A DNA stretch of 64,000 nt from Telopea speciosissima (taxonomy: Eukaryota; Streptophyta; Magnoliopsida; Proteales; Proteaceae): the NCBI RefSeq assembly GCF_018873765.1, contig NC_057924.1, positions 7,626,001 through 7,690,000 on the forward strand, given 5' to 3'. A program made the translations under genes and the position numbers. The notes beneath the pieces were generated by a model, which ran no database searches, had not been told where the DNA came from, and saw only the letters and a list, made by a program, of their open reading frames with translations. This document shows, piece after piece, positions 4,435-60,619 of the stretch (its first letter is position 1; each line of letters begins with the position of its first letter).

Positions 4435-7299
4435 TACAAAAGTTAATGGGTTCATACAAGTTAGTGCAGATTTCGGATCAAAGTCACTTAAGATTTTTTG
4501 CTCAGACTTAGCTTTGAAGAAAGGAGAGGTTAAGGTGACAAATCCTGATCATACTGCGGAAGTGCTTGAAATTGAAAGGGGAAGCATTAGATCCGAAAAG
4601 TTCGGGACATGCTTTTAAGGATGCCAAAGGGAAAGAAGTCGAAAAAGAAATCATGTCAGAAATTTAAGCATCCATTGTATGGTCATCAAAGGGACTCAGG
4701 GGATGAAATTCATAATATGTCAAGTCAATTTGGCTTTGAGATCGGTATTCCCGACCCCGATTCCGGTCAAGGACGCTCAAATTAGAAGTCATGTACAAGC
4801 ATCAGGTGATCGTGCAGAATGATGTTGAGTCAGGGAGTGCATTGGTAGCAGGAACTTGAGGTAATAAGGTTTGGAGCTGATAATTGCAGAGCTTTTGTGG
4901 TCATGTTTAGACTTGAGCTTGTTAGAGTTATAGGCAGTCCAGTGGTCAAGTTTTCTTCTGTTTCTCCTCCTTTTGGAGATGTTCCGTTTTATGTTGAGTC
5001 AGTCCCAGGCTGGACCGAGTCTGATGTGAATACAGATTTGAGTGAGTCTAGTTATCAAGTTTTCGTCAGTTTCTCCTCCTGTTGGAGATGTTCCGTTTTA
5101 TGCTGAGTCGGTCCCAATCTAGACCAAGTCTGATGTGATTACAAATTTGAGTGAGTCTAGTTATCAAGTTTTCTTTAGTTTCTCCCCTTGTTGGAGACGC
5201 TCTGTTGAGTCGGTCCCAGTCTGGACCAAGTCTGATGTAATTACTCCTTTTTTTCAATGAAATGAGTGTTTCCGGGCATATTGACTCCTCTTCCTTTTCC
5301 CCATCTTCTGATGATGAATCTTGCGATGGTCTGTGGCTTAACTTGTTTAAAAAAAAAGAGACAAAGAAATGAAAAGAAAGAAAGGAAGGAAAAGTTCAAC
5401 AGTGATCATTCGTTCATTGTTGGTGTCAGTCTCTTGATAGTAAAAGACCTTGAGCTTTTCATACATTTGACCCACTTCAAAAGAGCAAGGAGCTTAAAAG
5501 AGAATCTTACCTCATCTAGCCTATTAAGGGAGGCCATCCTTGGCCGCTTGCTATCTTGAATAAATCCTGGAAGCATTTAAACTCCAATAGTTACCCTCTT
5601 TGAGCCTTAGCCTCTTCTTTGGAAAGCCTTGTCATGGCCCACCCATAGCTCACCACCAGAATACCCTTCATCTACTTAATCCTATCAACTCCAAAGGTTT
5701 GACTCGGAAATGTTATGCCAAAGTCCAAAGTTGCCTGCCAAGGAAAAGGAAAAGTTCACTTGAAAATGAAAAAAAAGAAATGAAAAGAAGAAGGGCAAGA
5801 ACAAGAATTTCAAAAAGAAAAAGAATTTGAAAAAGAGAAAGAAGAGAAGGCAAGAACAAGAATTTCAAAGAGGAAACAGAATTTGGCAAAAGACAAGAAA
5901 AAAGAAATTTCAATCTGAGCCCAAACAGGGGCAAAAGAAAAGAAAGAAGAAAAAAAAAAAGAGAAAAAGACAATGTTAGTTCATGAGCCCAAACAAGGGC
6001 AAGAAAGAGGAAGTCCTCACAAAAAAGGATACTTGGTGGCAAAAGTTGTCAAATTCCAAGTAGACTCTAGGAACGTACTTTGAGCCTTTTACCTTCCTTT
6101 GAAGCCAAGTCCTAAGCCCCATTACAATCTAAGAAAGTCCTCCTAGGCTAGATGCGGTGAGATTTCCTTCGGTAGCTTCGAGCTCACTCGGCTATGATGT
6201 AATTTAACTATCAAGATTTTAACACTAGCATATCATCTGTGGCAGGAACTACGTCCGACCTGATTCCTGATTTATTCAGGATACGTAGGCAGCCTGAGAA
6301 GTCAACTTCAGGCTCGACCAACCATTGTTTGAGCTTTCCTTCTCGAAAGGGTTCAGAATGTCGCTACTTTTATCATCAGAAGATGGTCTGCTCAGATTGA
6401 AAACTCTTTCTACCATCTATCATTCTGGCGGATTTCCAAGAGTTTTACCTCTTAGTCCTTCTTTTCTATGCTAATCCTTCATTGGCGTGATTTCTCTTGT
6501 GAGCTCGCCATTCTCAAATAATAGCGTTGTCTTCTTTTCAGGTCATTTGTGTTCATGTCATCCAGAGTTCAAGTACAGACATGACCATTGGCCATTTCTC
6601 TCGTGATTCCAATACTATCTATTATGTTGTAAGATAGCCAAAAAAAACAAAGAAGAAAAAAAAGAAAGAGAAAAAAAAGAAAAAAAAAGAAAGAGAACAA
6701 AAAAAAAAAAAAAAAAAAAAAAACAGAAAAAGAAAAAAGAAAGCATAAAGAAAAAGGAAACAAGGTTGCAAGGGGCAAACCTCTCATGAGAAGTTCAATA
6801 TCATGTATGAATCTAGATACCCATTGATAGCAGAAGAATGACATCCTTGTTGACGGGGATGGTACAATAAGAGAGTGTAGGAGCATGCTTGCAATTTCGG
6901 TTCAGATTGGGATGATTCTGTTGAAGAGAGGAAATACTTGTCTCATCTCACTATCAAACTCATTCATGCATAGCATCCAATCATCAAAACCTTTAAAGTT
7001 CATTGTTGTGAGCCTTTTGTCCACCACCAACTCACCTAGAGAGCCATGAACTAGTCCTCTTTGATTTTTTACTAGAATGTTGCCAAGTTGAAATCATCTC
7101 GAGTGAAAAGCCAAGCATTCACCCTTGTTTAGGTCGATTAATGACTATGAGATATAGTCATTTGTTCTTGTCTTTGAACCTAGAACCAAAACCAAAGTCT
7201 AGAATCAGAACCTCAGAATTAGTAGCCAGAGTGTTCCCTCATAATTAGGAGCCAGAGTGTTTCCCCATAATTAGGAGTTAGAGTGTTCCTCCAGAATCA
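4435..7299. other. Retroelement-derived stretch, purine-rich tracts
   Basis: No host gene is seen. 5340-5400 and 5740-5990 are A/G-rich (AAAGAAATGAAAAG style), as is 6640-6760. All of these give long lysine- or phenylalanine-rich open frames that look like composition artefacts. Near 6245-6300 lies GGCAGGAACTACGTCCGACC followed by GGATACGTAGGCAGCCTGAG. This phrase pair is common in the untranslated parts of plant Tat/Ogre Ty3 elements, from memory. The stretch is best read as decayed internal sequence of such an element. Confidence 0.4.
4930..5250 (+). repeat. Tandem repeat of about 113 bp, nearly three units
   Basis: Units start near 4935, 5052 and 5161. Each carries TCAAGTTTTC, then GTTTCTCC, TTGGAGA, GAGTC[AG]GTCCCA and CTGGACC[GA]AGTCTGATGT. 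The third unit is shorter. The repeat lies in the presumed internal region of the Tat/Ogre-like debris. Open frames here exist only because of the repeat. Confidence 0.75.
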
Positions 7300-7560
7300 G
7301 AATCAGCACCACAGTCAGAATCAATACTAGAACCAGTCAGAATCAGAATTAGAATCAGCACCAGAAATAGTCAGAATCAGAATCAGAATTAGCATCAAAG
7401 TCAGAGTCAGCACCAGAACCAGTCAGAATCAGAATTAGAATCAGCATCAAAATCAGGATCAGAATTAGAATTAGAATCAACATCAAAATCAAAATCAGAA
7501 TTAGAATTAGAATCAGCATCAGAATCAGCATTAGAATCAGAACCAGAATCAGAATCAGCA
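7300..7560 (+). repeat. Degenerate CAGAATC/CAGAATTAG short tandem array
   Basis: The words TCAGAATCAG, AGAATTAGAATCAGCA and AGCATCAAAATCAG alternate for about 260 bp with a 6-bp rhythm. The minus strand reads as a Leu/Ile-rich frame, which is an artefact of the period. The array directly precedes the 76-bp satellite. Confidence 0.75.
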
Positions 7561-7574
7561 CTCAGAATTAAAAG

Positions 7575-8310
7575 CTTGGAAATTCTAGGAAGCCAGTAAA
7601 ACTTCCACGGATTTTTGGAAAATCTCAGCTAAAGTTATTTATTTTTGTCCCTTGGAAATTCTTGGAAGCCAGTAAAACTTCTACGGATTTTCAGAAAATC
7701 TCAGCAAAAGTTATTTATTTTTGTCCCTTGGAAATTCTTGGAAGCCAGTAAAACTTCCACGGATTTTCAGAAAATCTGAGCAAAAGTTATTTATTTTTGT
7801 CCCTTGGAAATTCTTGGAAGCCAGTAAAACTTCCACGGATTTTCAAAAAATCTGAATAAAAGAATTTATTTTTTGTCCCTTGGAAATTCTTGGAAGCCAG
7901 TAAAACTTCCATGGATTTTCAGAAAATCTGAGCAAAAGAATTCATTTATTTTTTCCCTTGGAAATTCTTGGAAGCCAGCAAAACTTCCATGGATTTTCAG
8001 AAAATCTCAGCAAAAGAATTTATTTTTTGTCCCTTGAAAATTCTTGGAAGCCAGCAAAATTTCCATGGATTTTCAGAAAATCTAAGCATAAGAATTTTTT
8101 TTTTCTTTCCCTTGGAAATTCTTGGAAGCCAGCAAAACTTCCACAGATTTTCAGAAAATCTCAGCAAAAGAATTTATTTATTTATGTTTGCCTTGGGAAT
8201 TCTTGGAAGCCAGCACACTTCCATGGATTTCCAGAAAATCTCAGCAAAGAACCTTTTCCCTTGGAAATCCCTTGAAGCCAGAGTACTCCCTCAGATTTTC
8301 GGAAGCATTT
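7575..8310 (+). repeat. Satellite array, about 76-bp monomer, nine full copies plus a partial
   Basis: CTTGGAAATTCTTGGAAGCC recurs with starts near 7575, 7651, 7727, 7803, 7879, 7957, 8033, 8110, 8191 and 8259. The period is 76 bp at first and drifts to 68-81 bp toward the end. Each monomer continues with AAAACTTCCA, GGATTTTCAGAAAATCT and a T-rich tail before GTCCCTTGG. Early monomers are nearly identical and the last ones diverge, so expansion was probably recent at the left. The array ends about 300 bp before an LTR start at 8605. Plant Ogre-type elements are known to carry such arrays in their 3' untranslated region. Confidence 0.92.
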
Positions 8311-12772: not shown

Positions 12773-15108
12773 GGAGAAGTGAAAGGGGACAGGAAGAAGA
12801 AAATGGGAGATTGGGGGGGTTGCAGGGGTTGAGGCGGAAGAGGAAGATAGGAGATTTGTGGGGGAGGGAGAATGAATGGGGTGGTTGTAGGGGAAGGGGT
12901 GGGGAGCCGATGAGCAGGGAATGGTTGCAGGGAAGAGGGTGAGAAGAAGACGAAGAAGAATAAGAAGAAGAGAGGGGGAGTGGGGCTTGACTTTCTAATA
13001 ACAAAATCGAATGACGTTTTTACCCCCATTTTTGTGACATATAAGCACATGTTCATTTACATTGAGCGAAAAAATAGAACAAAAATAGCTTTTGGCCAAA
13101 ACACAAAAATGGATCAAGAGTAGTTTTTGGTTTTTGATTTTTTCAATCTTTTTTAAATAGAAATAAGCTCCATAAACAATACCAAACACAATCAAAAACG
13201 TTTTTTAAGGAAAAAATAAAAAATAAAAACTATACCAAAGATAGCCTCATCACCTTTCCCTTGCGTTTCTTAGTCAAAAACATTTAGAGAACCACTTCCC
13301 GCGGCTACCACTCTTTCACCGGAGAAATCGCCGGTGGTACTTGCGTCAACAGTCGCCCTCATGTTAGTCTCTCTCTCTGATTTCTGTTATACTTCTTCAG
13401 ATTTTTCGACTTGCCGTGGAGTTTCTCGGTTAGCACCCCCGTTTGGAAGAATTCTTTATCTATAGAGGTAACTCTCTCTTTCTCTCAATAGATTATCACT
13501 GGCCATTGATCTTGCTACTCTTTTTCTCTCCTGCAACCGAGTGGTGGCCCAAGCAAGTCCACTAACAAGCTAGACCAGGTGAATTTTTTTTTTTTAAATA
13601 AAACCCATTACACACGCTCAGGGTGGATTTGGCTCCTGTCCAGCCGTGGCGGGAGCTGGACCGTCTAGCACCCCCCTAAGATGTTGCCACCTAGACAGAA
13701 GAACATCCAACGGCCTTAATCTATACTACTAGCTTTAACCCATTTGGCTCCCCTTCGTCATCTCTCACCCGATTATAATAACAAACCCGACCCGATGGAC
13801 TAGAGATTTTGAAACCAACCTCAAAACCCACGCCCCTCTTTTGTCTTCCCCCTTTTTGGTTTCTCCATTTTTTTGCTCTTGAACTTGCGACGAACCTTAG
13901 CAACGGCGAACGTCGAACCAGGTAATGTGACTTTGGATCTCCCCTCTTCTTCTCTCTCCTTTTCTCTCTCACTCTCTTTCATTTTCGTTCTGAAACCCTA
14001 ATCAGGGGAATTTCGTTGTTGGTACAGGGGATTTACTCATCTTATTCAAGGGATTTGAGCACGGCGAGGCTAATCAGGTAACCAGGCTAACCTGGAACTT
14101 CGTTTTTGTTCTTTATAATGGGCACTACAGGCTTTTCTCTCTCAATCTCCACCCTTACAGAATGTCTTAGGAATTGGATTTTTAGGCCATTCTGGTAGTT
14201 CGAGTCAAGGATATTAAAATTGTCTGGTAGTTCTTCATTTATTTTGGGCCTTTCTTTTAGAAGGGAGTTGGGGGATCATGAGACCGAAAAGGTTGATTTC
14301 CCCCAGAAGGTTTTCCCTTTTAAACCCATTTCAAAATTTCCTACTTCCCAGAGAATGTAGTTTTGCCTCTCAGGAAAACAATCCTGACATTATATCTGAT
14401 TTAATCTGTATGGTTTTGGTAAGCTTCATTACCTCGTTTAGGTGCTCTACTCGACCAAACCCAGAGTAATCCATGAACCAAGTGCATATTTTGGAGCTAT
14501 CACAAGTACTCAACAAGACCGCTAAACACACCTCTCATGGTGTTGGCAGCTGTAGTTTTCATCCCAACATTCATCAGGTAATGTTGGAGGAACAACTTTG
14601 TAAAGGCTCTCTACTATCCTACATTTATCAAACCCACATGAATTCAAAATTTCAAATAGCTTAATCTAGAGTTCCAGGGAAAGCAAAAGAACCTTTGAAC
14701 ACTGCACAACACCTGTAATCTACCATTGTATATGAGGATTAGAGGTAAAGAACTGTGCATCCTCCTCCAGAAAGTAGAACCAATCAATCAAACTGAACAT
14801 TATTCACCATATTCCCACATCTCTGCTTCTTATGGTTACTATCCAACACAGTGGTCCAGGATGTAAATCACTCATGCTTCCAGAGAGCAACCCTTTTGAA
14901 TTGAATGAGCCTAAATTTGTTACTAGATATTGTGTACACTTCTTTGGATTGTTCTGTAGGAATCCATCCAAATTCATTCCATCTTAAATTACTGCAATTA
15001 TCCTCCAGAAGAACTCAAGTTTAAGTTGCCATCACAAGAGGACTGATCTGGTCCCATTTGCAAACTCTTGTCTGTGTAAAGGGTAAACAACTCTGAATTT
15101 AAGATATG

Positions 15109-16421
15109 GCTATCATAGTTCTCATCATCATCTTTCCTGACATTCTTGATTGTGATATTGTTGAAGAACTGACCTAAGTTGAAGCCCCACCCATCTGCAT
15201 CATCTGGCCAGTCAGGGTCTTCCTCATCCACAACTAGAGGGTAGGCTAGAAGTTTCTCCATTTTCTTTCTCCTTTCTACTGGGTCTTCCTCCTCTTCAAC
15301 ATCGGGGTTCTTGTCGATCACCTCTCTAATTTTCTTTCTTCATTCCCGTCTTTCTTCTTCATCCATTAGTATCGGTTCATCTTCATCATCCTGATCACGG
15401 AATTTATCTTCCTTATCTTTCTGCCCACCATCAGAACCAACTTCCTCTTCAATTTTAGAAGCTCTCAACCCCGTTCTCCTCCTACAATTACCCTCCTGCT
15501 CATAGGTTACCATAAGTCACAAGAAAAGTAACTAACTATATACAATTAAAAAATTATAAGGATTCACTCCTGGAATGATTTTAAATGTAAAAGAGAGCAA
15601 CAGAGGCATACCACCAGAGATAAGTTGGAAAACTTTAGAGAGGGTATCGTAGAATTGTTGAATCTCGATGAAGAAACAGAGGAACAAGACATCTGCGTTG
15701 GTTTGAAGACAATAATAGCTCCAGCGAATGCAGAAGGAAAGACCGAAATGCACCCTTCTTTTGGAGACGTAAGAAAATGTTGTAATCTCAGTGAAATTTG
15801 CAAGGCCATATCTGGAATAACAAATGCATTAACCTATCTGAAAAACTATAAATTAGAAAAGAATAATAGCAAAAATGAAAACCTAGGAACTTCTCTTCCG
15901 ATTCAACAACTGAAAAGATCCAGAAGCTAGTACATTTTTCTTCTGATTTTATTTAAAAAATCATGCGGCTAGTGGCTACTTATTAGCAGGTGAAGACGGG
16001 TTATCAGGTTATAAGGCCATGACTACGAACAAAAGTCGAAAAATCAAAAGAGAAAAGCAGCACGAAATACGGTCTTCTACAGGCGCTGGTGCAAAAAATT
16101 TCACTTAATAGATAGCACATGTTTAACAAAAATTCTCTATTAGTAAGAGAGGAGAAGAGCAAACGACAGTACCAATCAATAGATATACGAGTTGCAGAAC
16201 AGATTCTTCGTGAACTCAATTTTCTTCCAGTTGTTTTGATTGGGCAATGAAATCTTTGTCTGCGTCGTGTTAAAACCCTACTAGAACTCTAAAACCCAAA
16301 CATAAAAAAGTATGGTTCGAGGAGCAAAGAGGACTGAAAGTTAGAACTTACAAGCTTTCAATTTTCCTACTGGGATAGACCCGGTCTGTTCCAGCTTGGG
16401 GCCCTAGGTTTTAAGAATCGT
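15109..16421 (-). pseudogene. Truncated inverted copy of the MRL7-type gene
   Basis: Read on the minus strand, the ATG at 15809 opens the same MALQISLRLQHF exon 1 as the intact gene. Intron 1 and the acidic exon 2 follow, up to 15109, where homology stops. Exons 3-5, which hold the C-terminal thioredoxin-like domain, are absent. In exon 2 the Trp of the REW motif has become a TGA (plus-strand positions 15340-15342). One Asp codon before YPLVV is also lost. The 5' flank is retained, so it may still be transcribed. It is a fragment of a host gene made by inverted duplication, not a retrocopy, because intron 1 is present. Confidence 0.9.
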
Positions 16422-16903
16422 GAATCGGCCGTGACCGATCCTGATTTCCACCGATACGTTCGACTGACACCCAAAAATCCTAAAAACCTTATTTATCTTT
16501 GGATCTGAGGACTAATTCTAAGTAGGGATGTAAATGGATGGGATTTGGCTCGGATATGGATACGAGTCCAGATGTGATAAGATCCGGATATTTCTTGGCT
16601 GAATATGGATACCTTTAAATGGATTTGGATGCGGATCGATACATCTCTCTGTCTTGTGTAGCCTGGACCTTCCTCCCCTTAACGGATACAATTTAATCTC
16701 AATACATATCTCGTAGATCATGATTCTCTTTTTCTCATATTCTAGAACCTGTTGAATCTTCAAAACCTTGAAGATAATTATTTATTTAATTTTTTATTAT
16801 TAAGTATTCAGATTTTCTTTCGAACGGATTTTTATTTGAGTAATCAGATTTTTTTTCTTCTGGAGATCTCTAAACGAATACCGATGTGCCTAAACCTATT
16901 CAT
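16422..16903. other. Spacer of the inverted duplication, with a MITE-like fragment
   Basis: This 482-bp loop contains TAGGGATGTAAATGG near 16525, followed by GGATATGGATAC-type words. They resemble one end of the hAT-type MITE at 52487-52756. No matching far end is seen, so this is a partial or decayed copy. Flanking words such as GTGAATCGGCCGTGACCGATC belong to another AT/CGGT-type repeat. The spacer may hold the junction of whatever event made the inverted duplication. Confidence 0.45.
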
Positions 16904-17513
16904 GATTCTTAAAACCTAGGGCCCCAGGCTGGAACAGACCGGGCCTATCCCGGTAGGAAAATTGAAAGCTTGTAAGTTCTAACTTTCAGTCCTCTCTGCT
17001 CCTCTAAGCATACTTTTTTATGTTTGGGTTTTAGAGTTCTAGTAGGGTTTTAACACGACGCAGACAAAGATTTCATTTCCCAATCAAAACAACTGGAGGA
17101 AAATTGAGTTCACGAAGAATCTGTTCTGCAACTCGTATATCTATTGATTGGTACTATCGTTTGCTCTTCTCCTCTCTTACTAATAGAGAATTTCTGTTAA
17201 ACATGTGCTATCTATTAAGTGAAATTTTTTGCACCAACGCCTGTAGAATACCGTATTTCATGCTGCTTTTCTCTTTTGATTTTTTGACTTTTGTTCGTAG
17301 TCATGGCCTTATAACCTGATAACCCGTCTTCACCTGCTAATAAGTAGCCACTAGCCGCATGATTTTTTAAATAAAATCAGAAGAAAAATGTACTAGCTTC
17401 TGGATCTTTTCAATTGTTGAATCGGAAGAGAAGTTCCAAGGTTTTCATTTTTTCTATTATTCTTTTCTAATTTATAGTTTTACAGTCAGGTTAATGCATT
17501 TGTTATTCCAGAT

Positions 17514-20500
17514 ATGGCCTTGCAAATTTCACTGAGATTACAACATTTTCTTACGTCTCCAAAAGAAGGGTGCATTTCTGTCTTTCCTTCTGCATTCGCT
17601 GGAGCTGTTATTGTCTTCAAACCAACGCAGATGTCTTGTTCCTCTGTTTCTTCATCGAGATTCAACAATTCTACGATACCCTCTCTAAAGTTTTCCAACT
17701 TACCTCTGGTGGTATGCCTCTGTTGCTCTCTTTTACATTTAAAATCATTCCAGGAGTGAATCCTTATAATTTTGAATTGTATATAGTTAGTTACTTTTCT
17801 TGTAACTTATGGTAACTTCTGAGCAGGAGGGTAATTGTAGGAGGAGAACGGGGTTGAGAGCTTCTAAAATTGAAGAGAAAGTTGGTTCTGATGGTGGGAA
17901 GAAAGATAAGGAAGATAAATTCCGTGATCAGGATGATGAAGATGAACCGATACTAATGGATGAAGAAGAAAGACGGGAATGGAGAAAGAAAATTAGGGAG
18001 GTGATCGACAAGAACCCCGATGTTGAAGAGGAGGAAGACCCAGTAGAAAGGAGAAAGAAAATGGAGAAACTTCTAGCCGATTACCCTCTAGTTGTGGATG
18101 AGGAAGACCCTGACTGGCCAGATGATGCAGATGGGTGGGGCTTCAACTTAGGTCAGTTCTTCAACAATATCACAATCAAGAATGTCAGGAAAGATGATGA
18201 TGAGAACTATGATAGCGACAAAGAATTGGTTTGGCAAGATGATAATTACATTCGTCCAATAAAAGACATTACCACTAAGGAATGGGAAGAAACTGTATTC
18301 AAGGACATCAGTCCTCTGGTCGTTCTGGTGCACAATCGATATAAAAGGTTTGTCTTCCACTTGTTCATCTACTGATGGTTCATATGTTCTTTCCATATTT
18401 GAACTAAATTACTGAATCCGGTTCCCTTCTCACATTGAAAAAATAAAAAATAAAGAATATGAAGACCTCTGCTGAAGATGACATGGAAAGTCTTGTCTCT
18501 AATTAAAGAGAAAGCAGGTATATTCTCTTTTTGGCAAAATGTGGATGCTGAATATAGCAAAAAGATTAACGACCTTCATTCAAACCTATATTTCCGGCCT
18601 GATTTTGGCTAAAAAATGGTCATTGATTTGCCTGTTCCAATCATCTTCTCTTTGATCAGATGACCCTGGCTAAGTGCACAGATCTGTGATGCAGGTTCTT
18701 ATTTCACGGTATCTATGGTGGGCTTCTCTCAATGTCCTTATGATTTCAAGCTTCGTTTAGTATTTCTCATTTCCATGCAATATACAGTCATTCACTGATG
18801 AGATCTTCATTGAAACTTTTTTGGGGTTTTCAAAAAGCTGCGTCCTCTTTTCTTTTTCCCCCATACTTTTTCTTCCATCGTTTTGATGAAGTTGAGACTT
18901 GAGACAAGTTCAAGAATTTCAAATATTTCACTCAACCTTGGAGTTTTAACAATCTTTTCAGCATCATATACAACGGCTTTTAAAATCATAGAGATCTTCT
19001 AAAAACCATTACATTGTTTCTATGTATGTATTTTAAGTCCGACTATTTGTCATTTGGCGAGAGAAATTTGAAATATATATTTTTTTTAAACCCTTAAGTA
19101 GAAAGCTTTTCAGAAACACCCTTACATTGTCGATGTCTTTAATTCAATTAGAAAATTTAGCACTGAGCTCTAAAATTTATTAGAACTGAAAATAAAGGTC
19201 CACTTTTTTGGTAAATCAGTAATGTGTGTGTTTTCCTGCCCTGGAAAATCTACAGAGCTTTGAGGAACACCTTCATGTAGTTCACATGCCTGCCTTTATG
19301 ATATTTTCTGAATTCACCATGGTTCTCACGACTTATTTGTCTTGTTGGTCAGGGATGGACTATAGAAGTTAATTCCCATGATGAATTATTTTTACAAGTT
19401 TCATGATGCAATTCATAGTTGTCAAGGCAGCGCCTAGGTGACCCTTTTGGCATCCAGGTGCTTACTGTCGCCTTGGTTGCCTAGACGGGTGTTTTGGTTG
19501 CCTTGTTGGTTTTTCCTTGCGTCCAGGTCCTCTCCAACGCCTTGGTTCGCCTAGCTGCCATGACAACTATGATTCAGTTGCATTAGACATTAATCCCCTA
19601 TGCATGCCTATATGTAACTAAGAAGGCCCCAAATAGTGGTTAAATCCAATGGGCTGAAATTAAGCTTTGTGCCTTTTATTATCTTTGGTTTCATTAGAAT
19701 GGGCCTAATTCATAAGCTCATAACGTGGGGGTAAAGTTGGCACACAAAATTAGTGTCTTAAGTGTTTGAATTATATTATGATATTTAATAGCTTTTAAGA
19801 GTTCTGTTTTGAGTCTATTTACTTTTAAGTCAGTATAAGAGGGTGATTAGGAGTCCTTTAATGAGTCAATTTAGGAATTTTAGGAGGTCTTTATATGTTA
19901 ATACACTCATCAATTAAGCATGATTTGAGTAAATAATCGAGTTTTTTTTTTTTTTTTTTTTTTTCATAAAGAGTTTTAGAGTGGTTGACCTTGGCATATG
20001 GGATTGATTTCTTCTCTTGTCTACTCTTCTTTTCTTCTCCATTGATTACAAGGTTAGTGTCTGCAATTCTCTTCTCTCTTCATATCATTTTCTAGTTCTG
20101 ATTCTGTTCTTAGCTTAAAAATCTTTTTTATTTTGGTTTCTTGAATTCCTACTCCATATAGGAATTTTTTGAAACTTCAAATCTAACCAAGGGATTTTAA
20201 TTCTGCTTCCCTGCTTAGCAATTGGTTTCTATTCTGAAGTATCGTACAGTGGTTTCAAAATTCTATCTTTTTAACAAATTTCTGTTTTTCAATTTCAAGT
20301 CTTATCAACCTGATTTTCAAGTTCTATTTTCATTTTCTGATAATCAGTATAACTGTTATGTTGTGGTGAAAGCCTGAAATTGATTTCGAAATTGGAATTT
20401 CTGAAATCTCCATCGATTCTCAGATTTGAAAATTCCTGCGCTAAGTAGGAAACTTCAGATCCTAAGAAGCCGACTATTGGATCAACCTGAGATTTTAGTA

Positions 20501-21922
20501 TTCTATTCTTCCCCATTAAATATACCTTCGACCAGAGTTTGGGGACCTAACAGAGTTGCTGATTTGAATTTATTGAAATTCTTCCTAATCTGGTTTCTAA
20601 GCCATTACTGCAATTCTGGTTTTTTCAAAGGGATTTCTGAATTCCCAAGCCTTGGGAGATTTAGAACCCCATTATTTCAATTGCTTCCAGATTTACCAAG
20701 ATGTCACTGTTTCTGGATTAAATTTTTTTGATTGTTCTCTTTCTTCTCCTTCTTGAATTACCACTATGTTAGTCATCTTCACATAATCTACACATCTCAA
20801 TTCTCAGGAGGGTAAGCTCTCTCTGTCGTTCTAAGTTTGAGGTGCGACACCTACTCCAAAAGGGTAGTGAATTGTCCTAATGCTGATTTCGGACTGCATC
20901 CTAAAGTACTTTTTTTTATTTTTTATATCAAGATGATTGTACTAACCATAACTCTATCCAAATCAGTGATAACAGGAAAACTCTCTGATCAGCTGAGAGG
21001 GAGGGTGGGGGAGATGAGTTACTAGATGTCGTGCATTTAGAGTTTCAGGACCTATACATGAATAGGTCCCACTGCTAAAGATGATACAGAAAATAATCAG
21101 TGAAATTAGATGATTTTCAACCATGTGATGTAGATGCAACTCCTTAGAACTTTTTGAAACTCAGTCGTCCAAGTTGGAGTGATCTGTTTGGGCTGCATTT
21201 TGTTCTATATGATCTTTTAGATGGGACCCACTTAACACTGGAACCCAAAAAACTCAAACCTTCAAGCACATTGCGTATTATATAGCCCCCAGAATTAATG
21301 TAGAATGGTCTTGGTATATATCCAGACCTAGTACTTTGCCATAACAAATCATACTTGAATTAGGTCAATAGTTTATTAACACCGTAAGTATTTGTACTGA
21401 AAGTTCTGATCGATGCATCTTAGACCCCGGGAGAATGAAACAGTGCGGGGCGAATTGGAGAAAGCAGTCCACGTCTTTTGGAACTCCAGGCTGCCTTCAC
21501 CAAGGGTTAGTGAGGCCATTTCATCATCTGTTCTGTGGCTGCCTCTTTTTATGAACATATCTCTTTTCTAACATTGTCATGTTGTATGCAACAGTGTATT
21601 GCAGTTGATGCTGTTGTTGAACTTGATCTGGTCTCTGCTTTGAAAGTCTCTGATTTTCCTGAGATTATCTTCACTAAAGCTGGGAAGATATTATATCGTG
21701 AGAAAGGTATTTGTCTATTAATGCAATCACTGTAATTTTTGGCACTACCTTTGCTTAATTTTGTTTCTTGCCATGGTTTTATGTTCAGCAATTCGAACAG
21801 CAGATGATTTGTCGAGGATAATGGCATTCTTCTACTATGGAGCAGCCAAGCCACCATGCTTGAGTAATTTTGGGGGAAGTCAAGAAGTTATTCCCTCTGT
21901 ACCAAGCAACAAGGAATGCTGA
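17514..21922 (+). CDS. MRL7: MRL7/SVR4/RCB-type thioredoxin-like chloroplast protein
   Basis: Five exons: 17514-17711, 17827-18347, 21424-21505, 21595-21706 and 21789-21922 (1047 nt, 348 aa), all GT-AG and in phase. Residues 1-60 are Ser-rich and basic, like a transit peptide. Residues 67-150 are charged (DEDEP, EERREW). The conserved block DPDWPDDADGWGF starts near 160, followed by WQDDNYIRPIKD and FKDISPLVVLVHNRYKR. The thioredoxin-like C-terminus includes SPRCIAVDAVVELD and FPEIIFTKAGKILYRE, then MAFFYYGAAKPPC. There is no CxxC active site, as usual for the family. Family members act in plastid-encoded polymerase function and chloroplast biogenesis, and some are dual-targeted to the nucleus. 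Intron 2 is 3.1 kb. The start was chosen because it opens the transit-like segment after a possible leader splice site (TTATTCCAG). The paralogue MRL7L/NCP is the alternative identity. Confidence 0.9.
18348..21423 (+). other. MRL7 intron 2 (3.1 kb)
   Basis: The intron runs from donor GTTTGT to acceptor CTTAG. It contains a T-run of about 24 bases near 19941-19964 and a CATAGTTGTCA-type MITE (19414-19571), and is otherwise AT-rich without a recognisable gene. 20000-20830 has CT-rich, leader-like stretches that look like old repeat. Exon 2 here extends beyond the duplicated arm, so the duplication breakpoint lies inside exon 2 and not in this intron. Confidence 0.8.
19414..19571. mobile_element. 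hAT-type MITE, CATAGTTGTCA family, copy 1
   Basis: The ends are CATAGTTGTCAAGG and GCCATGACAACTATG, an 11-bp terminal inverted repeat. The flanks ATGCAATT and ATTCAGTT agree at six of eight positions, consistent with a decayed 8-bp target duplication. The interior is rich in GCCTAGG and GGTTGCCT words, like the copies at 40146, 40975 and 41124. It lies in intron 2 of the MRL7 gene. Confidence 0.8.
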
Positions 21923-22440
21923 ACCAAGCAAAATGTTGTTGTGCATACTAAGCCCTAATTGTATATTGTTGCCTAAACAGAACAGATGAAAAAAGTTGTG
22001 ACGGAATGTGAGTATTCTCTGCGACAAAATGTAAATCAGTAGATGTGTGATGCAGATTTAAACAGGACCCTAGGATGGTCTATAGATTTTGAAACAAACT
22101 CTCCCACGCCCCTCTTTCGTCTTCCCCCCTTTCTGGTTTCTCATTGGTTGGTTTTTTTCCTTGCGTGTATTTACTAACTCTTCTCACGTACATCAACCTT
22201 TATTTGTAGAACTATAAACCAGTGTCTGTGTCACTGTGGAGCAAAGAAAGGAATCGAATTACTACCATTGCTGATAAAAGAAGCAAGCTTAGTTACAGTA
22301 CGTGTAAGAACACTATCGATCCAAACAAGAAAAACATCCCCCAATTTCCCTCTTTTTTCGTACAAAGAAGATCCAAAAGAAGAACACCTAGCCTCATCTG
22401 CAACCTCTCTCCTCCATTGTCCTCTCAACCTTAAAAAAAA
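21923..22440. other. Short intergenic region between MRL7 and the first NHL gene
   Basis: This holds the 3' untranslated region of the MRL7 gene and the promoter and leader of the next gene. 22074-22143 (AGATTTTGAAAC, CCACGCCCCTCTTT, TTTCTGGTTTCTC) matches 13792-13868 in the same orientation, so a small repeat of about 75 bp is shared across the inverted duplication. No TATA box stands out. Confidence 0.55.
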
Positions 22441-23055
22441 ATGTGCGAAACTAGAAATTTTTATCTATGGCTCATCCAAGTTGTACTCCTCACAGTAATC
22501 CTTTTCCTTCTTCTATGGTTTCTCTTACCACCCAGAAGCCCAAAATACACCATTAATGACTTCTATGTTCCAGCCTTCAATGAAGCCATGAACACCACCA
22601 CCACCACTAAAGAGATCTCGATTCGTAACACAACCATCATCTTTCATCTGGAAATTGAGAATCCAAACGAAGATAATACTATTTCTAGTGATGCAATAAA
22701 GGTAACATTGTTCTATGGTAATGATAGTCTTGGTGAAACCATATTTAATCAAATTGTTTCTTTAAACAAAGGGTCTATTATAGAGAATGGAATTGTGAAT
22801 GGTGATCGACAATTACTTCAGAAAGCAGTTTCAGGGGTTGTTCGGAACCGGATGACGACGAAGACGAAAACCGCGGCGGCCACAGCTGATTTAAGAATGG
22901 ATTTGGTTACTGGAGTTAAGTATAAAATGTGGTTTTGGAAGAGCAAGCATCATGGGGTTAACATGGAAGGTAAGGTTCCAGTTGGTAAAGATGGAAAGAT
23001 ATCAGCTAAGAACAAGAAACTAAGGCTTCATCGTTCTCCCAAGAAACACAAGTAA
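22441..23055 (+). CDS. NDR1/HIN1-like (LEA_2) membrane protein
   Basis: Intronless, 204 aa. A short cytoplasmic N-terminus (MCETRNFY) is followed by one transmembrane anchor at residues 9-30 (LIQVVLLTVILFLLLWFLL). Then comes the family hallmark NDFYVPAFN near 40. The LEA_2 beta-domain covers about 55-185, with possible N-glycosylation sites at NTT and NDS. The C-terminal signature YKMWFWKSKHHGVNMEGKVPVG and a basic tail KKHK agree with NHL proteins of about 200-215 aa. NHL proteins are plasma-membrane glycoproteins linked to pathogen response, plasmodesmata and sugar export; the specific role here is unknown. The start is the first ATG of the frame and gives the expected length. A related gene lies 2.3 kb downstream on the same strand. 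Confidence 0.9.
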   Translation: MCETRNFYLWLIQVVLLTVILFLLLWFLLPPRSPKYTINDFYVPAFNEAMNTTTTTKEISIRNTTIIFHLEIENPNEDNTISSDAIKVTLFYGNDSLGETIFNQIVSLNKGSIIENGIVNGDRQLLQKAVSGVVRNRMTTKTKTAAATADLRMDLVTGVKYKMWFWKSKHHGVNMEGKVPVGKDGKISAKNKKLRLHRSPKKHK

Positions 23056-24127: not shown

Positions 24128-25352
24128 CGTAGCAGCAACCAATACTCCAAGAGGTACTTCCCCTACCCGCATGACATAGCACACTTATTGGTGAGATATA
24201 TCACATAGCACTTTGCTTAATTCTTTTTTATGAGGCAACACATCAAGCTGAACCATCCAGTTTTTGAGAACCGGCCAATTTTATGTAAACCAAGCAGTTT
24301 GATTCCGATTTTGGGGAGTCTTGTTTATAAAATAACCAAAAATAGTTGTGATTAATGTGTAACTTGCTTAATTTCTTTCTTAATCTATTGGCAAAAGGAG
24401 TCGCAATTCCGCATTGAAGTGCGCTGTACGGTAGTGACGTAGAGAATCTAAGATAGGGTTATGTCATCTCTCTACTCTGTGGGTCCTGACTCCTGTCGGA
24501 GACTGGGAGTGGGACATTATAGTGGAGTAGAAGAGACAAATCCATGAGTTCGGATCGGTGAATCGGGTAAAACAGTAAAGAACGTTTACTAATCGGATCG
24601 GTGAATTTGGATTGGAATTCGCAGTGATCAATCCCCATTTCCATCGATCCGATACAATCAATTCATATAAGAAAACCTAGAAATTCCTCAATTTGGATCC
24701 TCTAGTATCGAGGTGCCCGATAGAATCTTATTGTCAAGATATAGTAAGACAAAAAATGACCATCTTACCTTTTATCAAAAAAAAATTGACTATCTTAACC
24801 TTGCTCGAAATTCCTTGTTTTGAAGCTGAGGACCAATTTTATGGTTCTAGAACATCAATCCAATCGATTACAATCCGAATTGCCATTCACCGATTCCGTC
24901 CTCAATTCCGCGTTTTAAAACCTTGATAGAAACCTGACTCGTATTTATCATTGCAACCACACCATCTATAAGCATGGACCCCATCAATAATCGATTCAGG
25001 AACAGGACATATTCGTTATTGTTGAAAAAAAAGAATTCCTCCACCAGCGGAGAAATGTCAAAAGTAGGGAAAAAGAATTCTGTCCCCTACGCCAGTACTT
25101 TCTTGAGTTGATGTGTTACAGAAGAAAAAAGGAATTAACTTTATCAATAAATAAAATGAAAAAAAAAAAAATAGGAACAGAAATTCCTGCTCACCTTTCC
25201 TTTCTCGAGCTTCTTCCTCACTTTGACACCTTTCCTTTCTCTCACTCAAAGTAAAAATTCTCTCACTCTGCTTCTTTCTTCTCCGATTTCTTCTCTTCCT
25301 TTCCATTTTGATTAATTTCTGTAGTTTTTTTTCTTCTTAAACATACAAATCA

Positions 25353-25988
25353 ATGTCGGAGTCTATGAGCTGCTGCAAGTGTTGCCTGAGCTTCATTTTC
25401 TCAGTGGGACTCACCGCTCTCTTCTTGTGGCTTAGCTTGCGTCCTTCCCCACCCACCTTCTCCATCCAAAACTTTTATGTCCCTGCCCTAAACACCACCA
25501 CCACCGGCGGCGGCACCACCGTAGCCATCGATTTCATAATCGACAACTCCAACAAGTTCAAGGGAATTTACTACGATGACCTAAACATCACTCTTTATTA
25601 CGCCCCAAACCTAAACAGCTTCCCCGTTGGAAACGGTTCCATTACGGGGTTCTATCAGGGACATAAGAAGAAGGCCAACAAGAAGACAACCCTTCAGGAA
25701 GTGAAGATTCCTTGGGCAGCGGCGGTGAAGACGGTTTCGTCGAACGGAACGGTGAGTTTTAGGGTGGATTTGGCGACGAAAGTGAGGTATAAGATCGTTA
25801 GTCGGAAGACCAGACGACACAAGATTAAGGTACAGGGTGATGTCAGTGTCGACAAGCAGGGAAAGAAAACCCACAAGAAATCGATTAAGCTGAAATCTGC
25901 CGCGCACGGCGGCGGCCGGCACTGCTTTTATAGGGTTATGGCTTCTCTCTTTGTTTTGTTTATTTCGGATTCTTTTGGTGTACGATAG
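25353..25988 (+). CDS. NDR1/HIN1-like (LEA_2) protein with an extended C-terminus
   Basis: Intronless, 211 aa. A Cys-rich N-terminus (SCCKCCLS) leads into one anchor at residues 11-30 (FIFSVGLTALFLWLSL). The hallmark IQNFYVPALN follows near 38-47. The LEA_2 domain runs to about 175, with several possible N-glycosylation sites (NTT, NIT, NGS, NGT). The signature VRYKIVSRKTRRHKIKVQGD is near 150. Family members usually end soon after the KKSIKLKS-like segment. Here a Gly/His linker is followed by a hydrophobic stretch (VMASLFVLFISDSF). This could be a GPI-type or second membrane signal, or an extension from loss of an earlier stop. It is related to the gene at 22441 but quite diverged. The specific function is not known. 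Confidence 0.88.
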   Translation: MSESMSCCKCCLSFIFSVGLTALFLWLSLRPSPPTFSIQNFYVPALNTTTTGGGTTVAIDFIIDNSNKFKGIYYDDLNITLYYAPNLNSFPVGNGSITGFYQGHKKKANKKTTLQEVKIPWAAAVKTVSSNGTVSFRVDLATKVRYKIVSRKTRRHKIKVQGDVSVDKQGKKTHKKSIKLKSAAHGGGRHCFYRVMASLFVLFISDSFGVR

Positions 25989-27718: not shown

Positions 27719-27955
27719 AAGACCGATCCTTCTTCTTCCATATCTGTTCTGTTCTACGTCTCTGCGGCTATTATTTGTTATTCCAGAGCTTTTTATTTTC
27801 CAGGTTTTTCTTTCTCTTCTGATGGATTTTTTTTTTGTTCTCTCGTTCTTGAGATCTTTCATCTTTTTTTGTCTTCTTCTTTTTGATTAACCCTTCACCA
27901 TCTGCGTTTTTCCTCTCTGTGTTTGTGTTCAAATTTGTATTTTTTAGTATATCTG

Positions 27956-28040
27956 TGCGGTGATGAAGCTATTGTGGACTAGAGTTTCTGATCTGGGCAT
28001 TGCCCTGAATCTGAAGACAAACCCTTGGCTGTCTGAGCAA
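27956..28040 (+). ncRNA. Candidate box C/D snoRNA
   Basis: A C box GTGATGA at 27960-27966 and a D box CTGA at 28033-28036 are 66 nt apart. They are closed by a short possible stem (TGC before, GCA after). A D'-like CTGA lies at 27988-27991. The size of about 85 nt is normal. The gene lies about 210 bp after a telo-box/site II/TATA promoter, as plant snoRNA genes often do. No rRNA target was worked out, and the C' box is weak. Chance occurrence of these short boxes cannot be excluded. Confidence 0.38.
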
Positions 28041-28728
28041 TCTCTTTTTCCATCTCCTCCGTATCTGTTTGTGCCCTAATCTTATCTATTCTATAAACCC
28101 ACCAGCTCTAACAGTTGATGATATTTACCTGAATTTATATATATATTTTTTTTGGTTAAAAGGAAAGGAATTGCGCCCATTACCAATTCTGGGGGAGAAA
28201 AATGTTCCTCTTGGTATAATGGCTTGGGCGCTAGATCCAAATTGTGGCTATCCTGATCTTTGGCTTTATTTTCCATGCCATTTGATCGTGGAAACACCTC
28301 ATACATTTTGAACATTGTGAATACTGATGACTAGTTCACCGCCCAATTGGGAGAAGAAAATAAGAAATCCACAAAACAAGTTCCCAACTTTTCATAACTT
28401 GGGCTAGTGACGAGATTGAGATAGGGATAGCCCTAAAATCTTTTTCTGTCACAATATACTACAAGCAGAATTCGTAATCCACCTCCATGGATTCTGATTT
28501 GGTTACAGAAATCAACTTGAACCCTAAAAATCAGTAATCAATCAGAATAATCATGAATCCTTAAAAAACTGATTTTTTTAAAATAGAGATTGATTAGAAA
28601 CAAGAATACTTGGATATAATTGTTACAAATCAGAGCCAATACAGATAAAAAAAAAAAAAAAAAAAGGACCTAGTGCCGGAGAGGGCAGGAAAGAGGCCGG
28701 CGAGCTGAGTTTCGAGAATTGGAGGTGC
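28041..28728. other. Downstream of the snoRNA candidate, no gene seen
   Basis: The sequence includes a small open frame (28069-28311) without family resemblance, and an A-run near 28650-28670. It may be transcribed as the tail of the locus with the promoter at 27.5-27.7 kb. Further C/D boxes were looked for and none with good spacing was found. Confidence 0.4.
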
Positions 28729-29708
28729 AGTGACAAGCCGTTTTGTGAAATCTTAACCGACCCACTATGGAAATCATCTGGGTTTCGTGAATATCCAAAT
28801 CCCTTGCCAAAACCGAGCTTTTCTCTTGGCCTCTTCTGCTAGGGTTTTTTAGAAGATGGATTGGTCTCTCTTTCTCTCTCTCAATGTTTATTTGGTATTA
28901 AAATAAAAACCAGATGAAGAGATCGATTGGATTTAATTTCTCACGACGGTCATCTGAGACACTACTGTGTCAATATTGATGTATAATCCAATGTATTCTG
29001 ATGGCTTTTCTCATCTCTTGAATTTGTATTTTATTTTTCTTTTTTTTCGGAATTTTACGAGTGAGTATAATGATGATGATCTTCAATCTACCGATGCTTT
29101 CATGATTGGATAAAATCCTCCTACTCATTCTGAATATTCACTCACTCAACATATAGTTAATGGTGCTATGGTTTGGTCCTTAGTTTTTTTTTTTTTCTTT
29201 CTGTTTGGATTTCAAGTAATCATATTTTCAATTCAGTACAATGAGGAGAAATTGAACTCGAAGCATGAGCTTGAAAGATCCATGATATTGTCAAAAGCAA
29301 TTTAGTCCTTTTCATTCCGAGTGCCACTCTTTGTATTTTTTTTCACATTTTCATGGTGAAAAATAATCCCTTTTTTCTCATCGATTTTTCCCCTTTTTGT
29401 TGCAATTTTCTCCTAATCAAATTGAAGCCCTAAAAAAACAATCCAACAATCTCTGTTCTAATCAAATTGAAGCCCTAAAAACGGCTTGTAATTCCATTAT
29501 TGCTGCTGGCTACAACCTTCTCGAAATTCTGTTGCTTTGCTAATTCAATTCCCAGCTCTAATCTCCACTTTTGTGGCCTCATTCAGCTGGAGTTTTAATT
29601 GCATAAGAGGTCAGGAAAAAACTTGGATTTCATTAGAGAGTTGGGTATTCACGAAACCCATTTGATTTCTGTAGTGGGGCGGGTAAGATCTCAAAACGGG
29701 TTGTGATT
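28729..29708. mobile_element. TIR element, about 980 bp, possibly MULE-derived
   Basis: The terminal inverted repeats are about 70 bp and near 80% identical by eye. The left (28731-28800) has CCGTTTTGTGAAATCTTAAC and GGGTTTCGTGAATATCC. The right (29637-29706) has GGTATTCACGAAACCC and GATCTCAAAACGGGTTGTGA. The interior has no transposase. A target duplication was not found. Long TIRs and size fit a non-autonomous Mutator-like element; this class is an inference. Confidence 0.65.
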
Positions 29709-29735: not shown

Positions 29736-30254
29736 GGGTTAAATATGCATACCCCTTAAAATGCATTCAATATTCTTCATACCCCCTAAGATTCTGACAA
29801 GTCCATACGCATCCCCTGAAAATTTCACATATCATCTCTATTTTTCCACTTAAAGTCATTTAAGTCCACATTAAGTGTTAAATACTAAATAATGACCAAA
29901 CTACCTTTTCTTCTATCTTTTCTAAAAATTTGAAAAGACCTAATTGCCTTGACCTATTTGCTAACATTTGAAAAGATCAAAATGCCCTCATCTTCCCCAA
30001 ATTATCTTTTTTGGTCTTTTCAAATTTTAGCAAATAGGTCAAGGTAATTAGGTCTTTTCAAATTTTAGAAAAAATAAAAAGGATCGAAGAAAGGATAGTT
30101 TGGTTATTTTTAACATTTAATGCATGGTGTGAACTTAAATGGCTTCAGGTGGAAAAATAGGGGTGGTACAAGGTATTTTCAGGGGTGCGTGTGGACTTTG
30201 TCAAAACTTTAAAAAATATTGGGTGCATTTTAGGGGCTATGCCTATTTAACCTC
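29736..30254. mobile_element. Long palindromic element, about 519 bp
   Basis: The outer ends GGGTTAAATATGCATACCCC and GGGGCTATGCCTATTTAACC are inverted. The centre is also folded: AGACCTAATTGCCTTGACC near 29937-29955 pairs with GGTCAAGGTAATTAGGTCTT near 30037-30056. TTTGAAA flanks both ends and may be part of the target duplication. Nearly the whole element can form a hairpin. No coding content. Confidence 0.78.
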
Positions 30255-43700: not shown

Positions 43701-46700
43701 TTATGATTATTATAAATAGAGAGGACCTGTGTCTCATTGACACAAGTTCAATTCCCCAAATATTCCCTCCAAAAGTATTTGGGTGTGTTGCCTTTGCCCG
43801 CAATCACTATGCGCATGGCAAGCTTGATTCGAGGGGTCTTTGATGCATTTTCTTGGGCTATTCTGCCACTCAGAAGGGTTATAAATGCTATCACCCTCCA
43901 TCACAACGGATGCATGTTTACCATGAATGTGCTTTTCTAGGAATTTCCATATTACTCCTCTCCTACATCTCATCAGGGGGAGTTTAGGACTTCAGGTGAA
44001 GAGATGCAGTTTGTGATTGCCCCTATGAAGCTACCCATAATGGAAGATGATATCGAAGTTGCAGATGGTGTTACTGGTCAAGAGCAGCAGCCCATGGTAG
44101 AGGAAGAACAAGCTCCCCTCCAGCTCCTCCAGCCCACGGTTCAGGGGGAGCCTCAGCCCACGGTTCAGGGAGAGTCTCAGCTCAAGGTTCAGGGGGAGCC
44201 GTAGCCATCTCTTCTTTCTCCTCTGAAGATGTTTGTTCGTTCTCGAAAAAATAAAAACAAAGAGCATGCTACTAAGACCACCACCATTTGTCCTCGCCGA
44301 TTGGACTTACCGGATTCAGGTCTACCATGTGCCCCTAATGTGTTTGGTGAGTCTTCCAGTGATCCATCTCTAGACTTACCCATTGCTGTTAGAAAACAAA
44401 AAAGGTCATGTATTCAACATCCTCTTTCTAATGTTGTGTCGTATAACTCTTTGTCTCCTTCCTTTCGTACCTTTGTCTCTTCCCGGTCGTCTGTTTCTAT
44501 TCGTAACATTTGGCAGGAAGCACTGGCTCATTCTAAATGGAAAGAGGCAATGAATGAAGAAATGCAAGCTCTTGGAAAGAATGACACATGGACACTGGTG
44601 TCTCTTCCTCCAGGAAAGAAAGTTGTAGGATGTAAATGGGTGTTCATAGTAAAGCACAAAGCTGATGGTTCTGTGGACAGGTACAAAGCACGACTAGTTG
44701 CTAGAGGATTCACCCAAGCTTATGGAATTGACTACCAGGAGACTTTTGCACCAGTAGCCAAGATGAATACTGTGAGAGCAATCCTATCATATGCTGTGAG
44801 TCAAGGATGGGACCTTCAACAGCTAGATATCAAGAATGCATTCCTACATGGAGAACTTGAGGAAGAGGTATAAATGGACATTCCTCCAGGATTTGCTTCT
44901 CAGAAGACTCAGGGGAAGGTGTGTAAACTCAATCGTGCCCTGTATGGTTTAAAGAATCTCCAGAGCCTGGTTTAGGAGATTCCATAAGGCAATGGTGTCA
45001 ATAGGTTTCAAGCAGAGCAATGCCGATCACACTCTCTTCATTAAGAGATCTCCTCCACATATTACTATTTTGATAGTTTATGTAGATGATATTGTTATCA
45101 TTGGGAGTAGTGTAGAGGAGATCTCCTCTCTGAAAAAATTCTTGGGACAGGAGTTTGAGATTAAAGACCAAGGAAAATTGAGGTATTTCCTGGGTATTGA
45201 AGTTGCATATGCTGCTAAGGGTATTTCTCTCTCCCAAAGGAAATACACCATTGATTTATTAACAGATACAGGAATGTTGGTTTGCAAGCCTGCTGACACC
45301 CCTGTGGAACCCAATTCTCATCTTCGAAGTAAGGAAGGAGAACCGGTTGACAAGGCTAGTTATTAGAGGCTGGTTGGGTGACTCATCTATTTATCCCACA
45401 CTCGCCCAGATATTGCATTTGCTGTAAGCATGGTGAGTCAATATAAGCATGATCCATATTCATCCCATTTGGATGTTGTGTACCGGATCTTACGTTACTT
45501 GAAGGCTGCTCCTGGAAAAGGTGTCCTTATCTCATCTCATAATCATCTTCGTATTGAGTCATATACAGATGCTGATTGGGCAGGCTGCCTTGATGATAGA
45601 TGGTCTACTTCTGGTTATTGTACCTATGTTGGTGGCAACTTAGTTACTTGGAGGAGCAAGAAGCAATCTGTAGTAGCTCGTTCCAATGTAGAAGTGGAAT
45701 TTCGTGCCATGCCCCATGGTATTTGTGAGTTACTGTGGTTACGGAGCTTACTTCAGGACCTTGGTGTTCTATTTGAGCTGCCAATGCGTCTCTACTCTGA
45801 CAGTAAATTTACGATCAGTATTGCACATAATCCAGTTCGGCACGAACAAACCAAACATTTGGAGATTGATCGCCACTTTATCAAGGAAAAACTCGATCAA
45901 GGTCTTGTTTGCATTTCGTTTGTCCCTTTGAGTGATCAGTTGGCTGATATATTTACTAAGGACTTACCTAGTAAGAACTTTGTTTCAGTTGTTAGCAAGT
46001 TGGGCATGGCTGATATTTATGCACCAACTTGAGGGGGAGTGTTGTATTATGAGGTACAAGGGTATAATTGTCTAGTGGGGTTTAATCTGTGTTGCCCTAA
46101 GGGTATTATTGTAATTTGATTTTCAGTATAATTATTATAAATAGAGAGGACCTATGTCTCATTGACACAAGTTCAATTCCCCAAATATTCCATCAGTTAT
46201 GTTATGGGGAATTGTATGGCCTTATGGTTTTTATTTTTTGGGCTTTCTAGGAACTGGTGGGATTTCAATGTCTCAGCTGATTATTCACTTCTTGTAGCAT
46301 CTATGCTGCTCTATTTGTAAGGCTTATTACCTATTGTTTTTGTAGCTGCTGCACACTACTTTGTTTCAGGTTTTAGCTAATCAATAAAATTTCTGTTGTT
46401 ATATATCAAGCAAAAAAACTACAAAAAGGAAACAGGAAAAGATGAAGGTGTACCTCTATTTTTCTCTTCCGCTTATCATTCCCATTCATTAAAAAATGTA
46501 CTGGGATGAAGGATGACAGGAATACTATCCAACCCATTGTCAATACCAGAGCTCTGCAGATTTAAAACAAAACACATCAAATTGGTGAACAATTGTCACA
46601 ATAAGTCTAATATGATGTATAGGAAGGCAAGCATGATATTGCAAGTTTATTATGATGTGTAAGTATAATCTCCTAAGGATCCTATTTATTCTAGGGACAT

Positions 46701-59975: not shown

Positions 59976-60619
59976 AACATTACACCGACCAATTTTAAGC
60001 AAAATAATAATAATAAGTTTCACTCCCATAAAAGGGAATGTTTTTTTTTTTTTTTTTATTTTTTATTTTTATAATGGAAAAGAAAAACTTAATAAAATAG
60101 AAAAGAGTCAATGTCATAGTTCACCAGCCGAGAAACCCTATTCCCCACATAGGGATAAGCACAAAGCCATATACAGTTAACATATATAGTTATTTCAACA
60201 TGGATAGATTCAATACAATACATCCATATGTATAATTTCATAGTCGAATTTATTATTATATGCACCAACATGCATTTTTTATACATTTATTTTCACATTC
60301 AAAACAAAAATAGGATCCATTCCCACATGCCCATGTTTTATTGCATAACTCAAATTGGGCTAAAACTTAATTGGGGACATTTCCCTCAACCCAGGTACGC
60401 CTCCTTAGACCTTAGGTCCTATCTGCTGTCTAGACAAGTATCCTCAGCCACATCTACAAGCACATGTAACTGGAATTAATGGTTGGGTGGACATGAGTGG
60501 TTTTAATGTCGTTTAAAGGTACATTACAATTCTGAAAGATTGCCATCTACTTCTGGTTCACCTTCAACATCGGTTCTTTGAGGAAAACAATGCCATGTAT
60601 TGGATTGCTACTTATGCCA

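Follow-up and report, generated by a model that had tools for sequence, protein, structure and literature searches.

In Arabidopsis Cvi, a deletion has left 50 bp of non-palindromic sequence between VIM4 and VIM2, and 5′-extended transcripts that cross this gap give rise to small RNAs and non-CG methylation, whereas the Col allele, in which the two genes lie 2.8 kb apart, is without the Cvi-specific small RNAs (PMC13213937). In soybean, the I locus (GmIRCHS) is a tail-to-tail repeat whose arms are 78 bp apart and transcribed from an external DnaJ-gene promoter, and dsRNA was detected (PMC13051633). A minority read-through transcript of PAI1-PAI4 in Arabidopsis Ws also leads to dsRNA (PMC3203196). 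Here we describe an inverted duplication in a window of 64 kb (the whole stretch of DNA that was analysed) and compare it with these systems.

The window contains a genuine inverted duplication. Two arms were found both by find_repeats and by self-BLASTN (E = 0) and are 97.2% identical over 1,323 alignment columns, in agreement with the original prediction of two mirrored 1.3-kb arms that are a few percent apart. Self-BLAST of the window showed that they are its sole long high-identity inverted pair. The alignment places them head-to-head, with the 5′ (promoter) sides inside and facing each other. They differ by 33 substitutions and two indels, one of 1 bp in intron 1 and one in-frame deletion of 3 bp in left-copy exon 2. 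In each arm, some 620 bp of 5′ flank and leader precede exon 1, followed by intron 1 and 390 bp of exon 2 (521 bp in full). An extent from the promoter side over exon 1 and intron 1 to most of exon 2 had indeed been predicted. The coding part inside the arms amounts to 588 of 1,047 nt. The predicted outer ends, 15109 and 18216, are exact, but the spacer measures 466 bp and not 482 bp. We set the inner ends near 16428/16895, since extension to 16434/16889 brought in almost only mismatches. Apart from a short piece of dispersed repeat at 16523-16556, with 88% similarity to 52723-52756, the spacer is unique. Repeat search and self-comparison recognised no transposon ends at the arm breakpoints, and the window contains no Ns. 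The features of the locus are listed in Table 1.

Table 1. Features of the inverted duplication and its surroundings (positions within the window).
Feature	Position	Strand	Basis
Leader-like sequence with consensus donor CAG/GTAATG at its end; would read toward the left arm, antisense	13783-13922	+	weak, inferred
Post-break sequence; 36 unrelated codons in the left-copy frame before a TAA	15001-15108	-	ORF/translation, Pfam
Left arm: the MRL7L 5′ part as a partial, inverted and truncated copy	15109-16428	-	repeat search, self-BLAST, alignment
Premature stop of left copy: parent TGG (17980-17982) to TGA	15340-15342	-	alignment
Left-copy exon 1, open, start codon at 15809	15612-15809	-	alignment
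Spacer, unique, between the promoter sides of the arms	16429-16894		repeat search, self-comparison
Right arm: same sequence within the intact gene	16895-18216	+	repeat search, self-BLAST, alignment
MRL7L/NCP-type gene, intact (five exons)	17514-17711, 17827-18347, 21424-21505, 21595-21706, 21789-21922	+	manual gene model; PDB 6NE8 match

The right arm runs on into a five-exon gene (17514-21922) of 349 codons including the stop and without internal stop, and the left copy breaks off at 15109 within exon 2, after which the sequence is unrelated. That one arm enters a complete gene and the other ends sharply in exon 2 was thus correctly foreseen. The gene model was built by hand, with the exon 1/2 junction picked from several in-frame options, and its introns are all GT-AG. 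Among proteins of solved structure, the sole confident relative is the thioredoxin-like domain of Arabidopsis MRL7L (PDB 6NE8; 81% identity, 112 of 138 residues; E = 5.6e-71). The alignment reaches the C-terminal tail SQE.IP.V, and the predicted protein has a non-catalytic thioredoxin-like C-terminal domain matching NCP. MRL7L is another name for NCP, and MRL7 is RCB, its paralog (PMC6570768). Because the closest solved protein is MRL7L/NCP and the predicted length of 348 aa is nearer to NCP (350) than to RCB (331; lengths from PMC6570768), the parent gene is probably MRL7L/NCP and not MRL7/RCB, the latter weighed by length only. The name MRL7, under which the gene was originally predicted, would then be that of the paralog. 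Loss of NCP in Arabidopsis leads to tall albino seedlings, and NCP is active in the nucleus and the plastid (PMC6570768). A scan of IMG/VR with the predicted protein gave no relative.

The MRL7L locus is flanked by an 87-bp dispersed repeat with 82% identity on the same strand (13783-13865 and 22060-22142); its left copy makes up part of the leader-like sequence at 13783-13922. Downstream are two + strand LEA_2 (NDR1/HIN1-like) ORFs (22435-23052 and 25341-25985), of which only 25341-25985 is above the Pfam cut-off. The region 27951-29133 encodes four + strand snoRNAs (snoZ157, snoR80, snoZ161/228 and snoZ105), all above the Rfam gathering scores, which form a plant polycistronic snoRNA cluster. 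A 516-bp palindromic element at 29737-30252, with halves that are about 75% complementary and TIR-like ends GGTTAAATATGCATACCCC, resembles a long foldback MITE. Copia-type retroelement sequences with RVT_2 matches are found at 44205-50453, which looks like two degraded tandem copies, and at 55130-59978, which has a 92% LTR pair (55130-55312 and 59791-59978). Lastly, about nine units of 76 bp are repeated in tandem (7575-8304) beside a CAGAAT-rich stretch (7292-7568).

The left copy keeps exon 1, the start codon and intron 1 with its splice signals. Since intron 1 is present, the duplication took place at the DNA level and not from mRNA, and a retrocopy origin is ruled out. With the intron retained, an end inside exon 2 and a TGA at 15340-15342, the left copy has the properties of an unprocessed truncated pseudogene. 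No Pfam match was found in the open 36-codon run past the break, which probably arose by chance; it would be a chimeric ORF if the stop is younger than the fusion. A chimeric functional gene made from the left copy is ruled out, as the stop precedes the fusion. Neither terminal nor further repeats that would point to capture by a transposon of the Pack-MULE or Helitron type turned up near the left arm in the self-comparison; a left flank without Pfam match keeps some room for this origin. An Rfam scan of the arms gave no miRNA or other RNA family, and a scan with bacterial promoter and terminator models, which are not relevant to a plant, stayed at or below chance.

Between the arms, 7 of 585 coding sites differ versus 26 of 734 noncoding sites (Fisher P = 0.007). 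The lower coding divergence fits a constrained parent and a free copy. With one constrained and one free copy, 10-13 coding changes are expected (P for seven or fewer = 0.05-0.19), and the counts are no demonstration of constraint on the left copy. Five coding changes are nonsynonymous (stop included) and two synonymous, which is too few for a firm ratio and lacks an outgroup. From the noncoding divergence of 3.6%, and if 1.5e-8 to 2.5e-9 substitutions per site and year are assumed, the duplication would be roughly 1.2-7 million years old, or older still if the arms underwent gene conversion. At their exon 2 ends (15109-15327 and 17998-18216), the arms have no substitutions in the last 219 columns and one in-frame 3-bp deletion (end-gap P = 0.004, any-gap P = 0.08), which could reflect gene conversion or constraint. 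In this respect the original interpretation finds support: we are dealing with a genuine and recent duplication near its parent gene.

We consider it fairly probable that the locus represents a partial, segmental head-to-head inverted duplication of an MRL7L/NCP-type gene, of which the left copy is now a truncated unprocessed pseudogene, without strong silencing. A break upstream of the parent was probably mended by copying the adjacent stretch, from the promoter side through exon 1 and intron 1 to most of exon 2, in inverted orientation, and we infer that this went through fold-back or a template switch. The left copy is a pseudogene, as it breaks off within exon 2, runs into unrelated sequence and contains a premature stop. 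Its default output, if any, would be divergent sense RNA with no protein possible, likely cleared as a nonsense transcript. The parent is intact, and occasional spacer-crossing transcripts may yield some siRNA. Strong silencing of this essential gene seems unlikely, because about 1.2-7 million years is a long time to tolerate it given the albino phenotype upon loss (PMC6570768). Points against this pseudogene account are the CG/CHG bias discussed below, the substitution-free exon 2 end and the precedent of siRNA from a head-to-head repeat (PMC13213937).

An active head-to-head hairpin is a serious second explanation, possible but ranking behind the truncated pseudogene. Spacer-crossing transcripts would be diced, and the siRNAs would methylate the promoter sides and/or cut MRL7L mRNA, with a mild or tissue-limited effect. 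The locus has long, near-identical arms that contain exons 1-2, and + strand RNA over 15109-18216 is predicted to fold back at -2462 kcal/mol with 1,292 arm-to-arm pairs. In the left copy, 127 of 178 21-mers of exon 1 and 269 of 370 of exon 2 match the parent perfectly. This arm identity and the near-perfect predicted foldback argue for a hairpin, as does the VIM4-VIM2 precedent for head-to-head repeats. However, the internal promoters point outward. Since the promoter sides face each other, each promoter by default would drive outward sense RNA and no antisense of the other arm. Hairpin RNA needs a transcript from the left flank or from within an arm that would cross both core promoters and the spacer, and the geometry thus seems to argue against such a transcript as the default output. 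The crossing would involve a 466-bp spacer plus the core promoters, whereas VIM4-VIM2 required a deletion leaving 50 bp. In favour of transcription from outside, the left flank contains three good splice donors on the + strand and zero on the - strand; this bias could reflect antisense transcription toward the left arm. No gene was recognised in the left flank. Against an active hairpin, the intact parent, an essential gene, has persisted. Judged from sequence, hairpin-siRNA silencing of MRL7L is therefore plausible but unproven.

The contexts of the arm-to-arm transitions bear on the same question. Over the whole arms, 12 of 20 transitions lie in CG/CHG (null 0.28-0.32; P = 0.002-0.008). The bias is concentrated in the 5′ flank and leader (11 of 13, expected about 30%, P about 1e-4), and the exon 1-exon 2 part has 1 of 7; both tests are post hoc and based on few sites. 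Of the 11 CG/CHG transitions of the 5′ flank, 5 have the C/G in the right arm and 6 have it in the left. Because the C/G state is split in this way, there are hints that both arms lost cytosines, as methylation of both would leave behind; inverted repeats that produce siRNA are methylated in their arms. Methylation of the left arm only fails to account for the near-equal split, so a methylated pseudogene arm alone would not produce the pattern, which favours an active hairpin. On the other hand, CpG is not depleted: its observed/expected ratio is 0.57-0.71 in the 5′ arms and 1.07 in the spacer, compared with 0.46 in the window. The LTR pairs were too short and C-poor to serve as methylation controls, so the transition test, itself post hoc, is without a proper control. 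The bias may be taken as a hint that raises the silencing idea without settling it. Contexts of arm-to-arm transitions nevertheless offer a cheap sequence test for past methylation of inverted repeats. A further speculation, which we regard as quite unlikely, is that rare spacer-crossing transcripts give siRNAs by which both facing promoter sides become methylated and MRL7L is dampened. The promoter of this gene, essential in light signalling and for chloroplasts, would through the duplication have become a self-limiting unit, a natural greening rheostat maintained over at least a million years.

It is unlikely that the left copy expresses a sense transcript with a role of its own, as a truncated protein or as RNA, e.g., a decoy. 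In favour of this, its exon 1, start codon and intron 1 splice sites are intact and the probable core promoter beside the spacer was duplicated with it. The predicted protein of about 117 codons would have a transit peptide and an acidic region without the thioredoxin-like domain. Because the duplicated part extends well past the stop, the transcript is expected to undergo nonsense-mediated decay, and the 5 nonsynonymous versus 2 synonymous changes also speak against a functional product. An assembly artefact, by a mis-joined alternative haplotype or a chimeric read, is very unlikely: the arm divergence of about 3% is within the range of plant heterozygosity, but the sequence is gap-free with 33 substitutions scattered along the arms, a unique outer flank, a stop and a sharp in-exon end set the left arm apart from an allele, and a palindromic chimeric read would give near 100% identity, which makes it unlikely because the arms are divergent and the outer flank and spacer unique.

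Returning to the known systems, the truncated MRL7L copy shares with unprocessed pseudogenes from local duplication the kept intron, the truncation, the premature stop and the intact parent next to it. Those copies lie in tandem, whereas the MRL7L copy stands head-to-head with its parent across a short promoter region that both share. The original prediction pointed to the inverted chalcone synthase loci of soybean. This analogy is not supported: GmIRCHS likewise has inverted gene-fragment arms of about 1.1-1.3 kb near a homologous gene and a pseudogene copy, but it is tail-to-tail with a captured promoter outside the repeat, whereas the MRL7L arms are head-to-head with their promoter sides inside. 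PAI1-PAI4 is also an inverted duplication of an endogenous gene, but its arms are tail-to-tail, it is heavily methylated and a heterologous promoter is fused to it upstream (PMC3203196). SULF of Antirrhinum and YUP of Mimulus are, like the MRL7L repeat, young taxon-specific partial or inverted duplications of a protein-coding gene; regulatory small RNAs with phenotypes were demonstrated for those two loci (review PMC12371187).

VIM4-VIM2 is a better precedent than GmIRCHS. Both VIM4-VIM2 and the MRL7L locus are head-to-head with first exons facing and with exon 1 and intron 1 in the arms (PMC13213937), and both would fold back only if a 5′-extended transcript crosses the gap. They differ in that the VIM genes are near full-length and 99.86% alike, compared with a truncated copy at 97.2%, and in that small RNAs, antisense 5′ ends and non-CG methylation were measured for VIM4-VIM2. 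The MRL7L gap of 466 bp is not very short and lies between the 50 bp of Cvi and the 2.8 kb of Col. A silent MRL7L copy would be just another young gene fragment. One that makes siRNA would add a natural head-to-head hairpin locus to those known and bring an essential regulator of chloroplast biogenesis under self-directed control by RNA, and in comparison with VIM4-VIM2 it would help to define the longest promoter-containing gap that permits hairpin formation.
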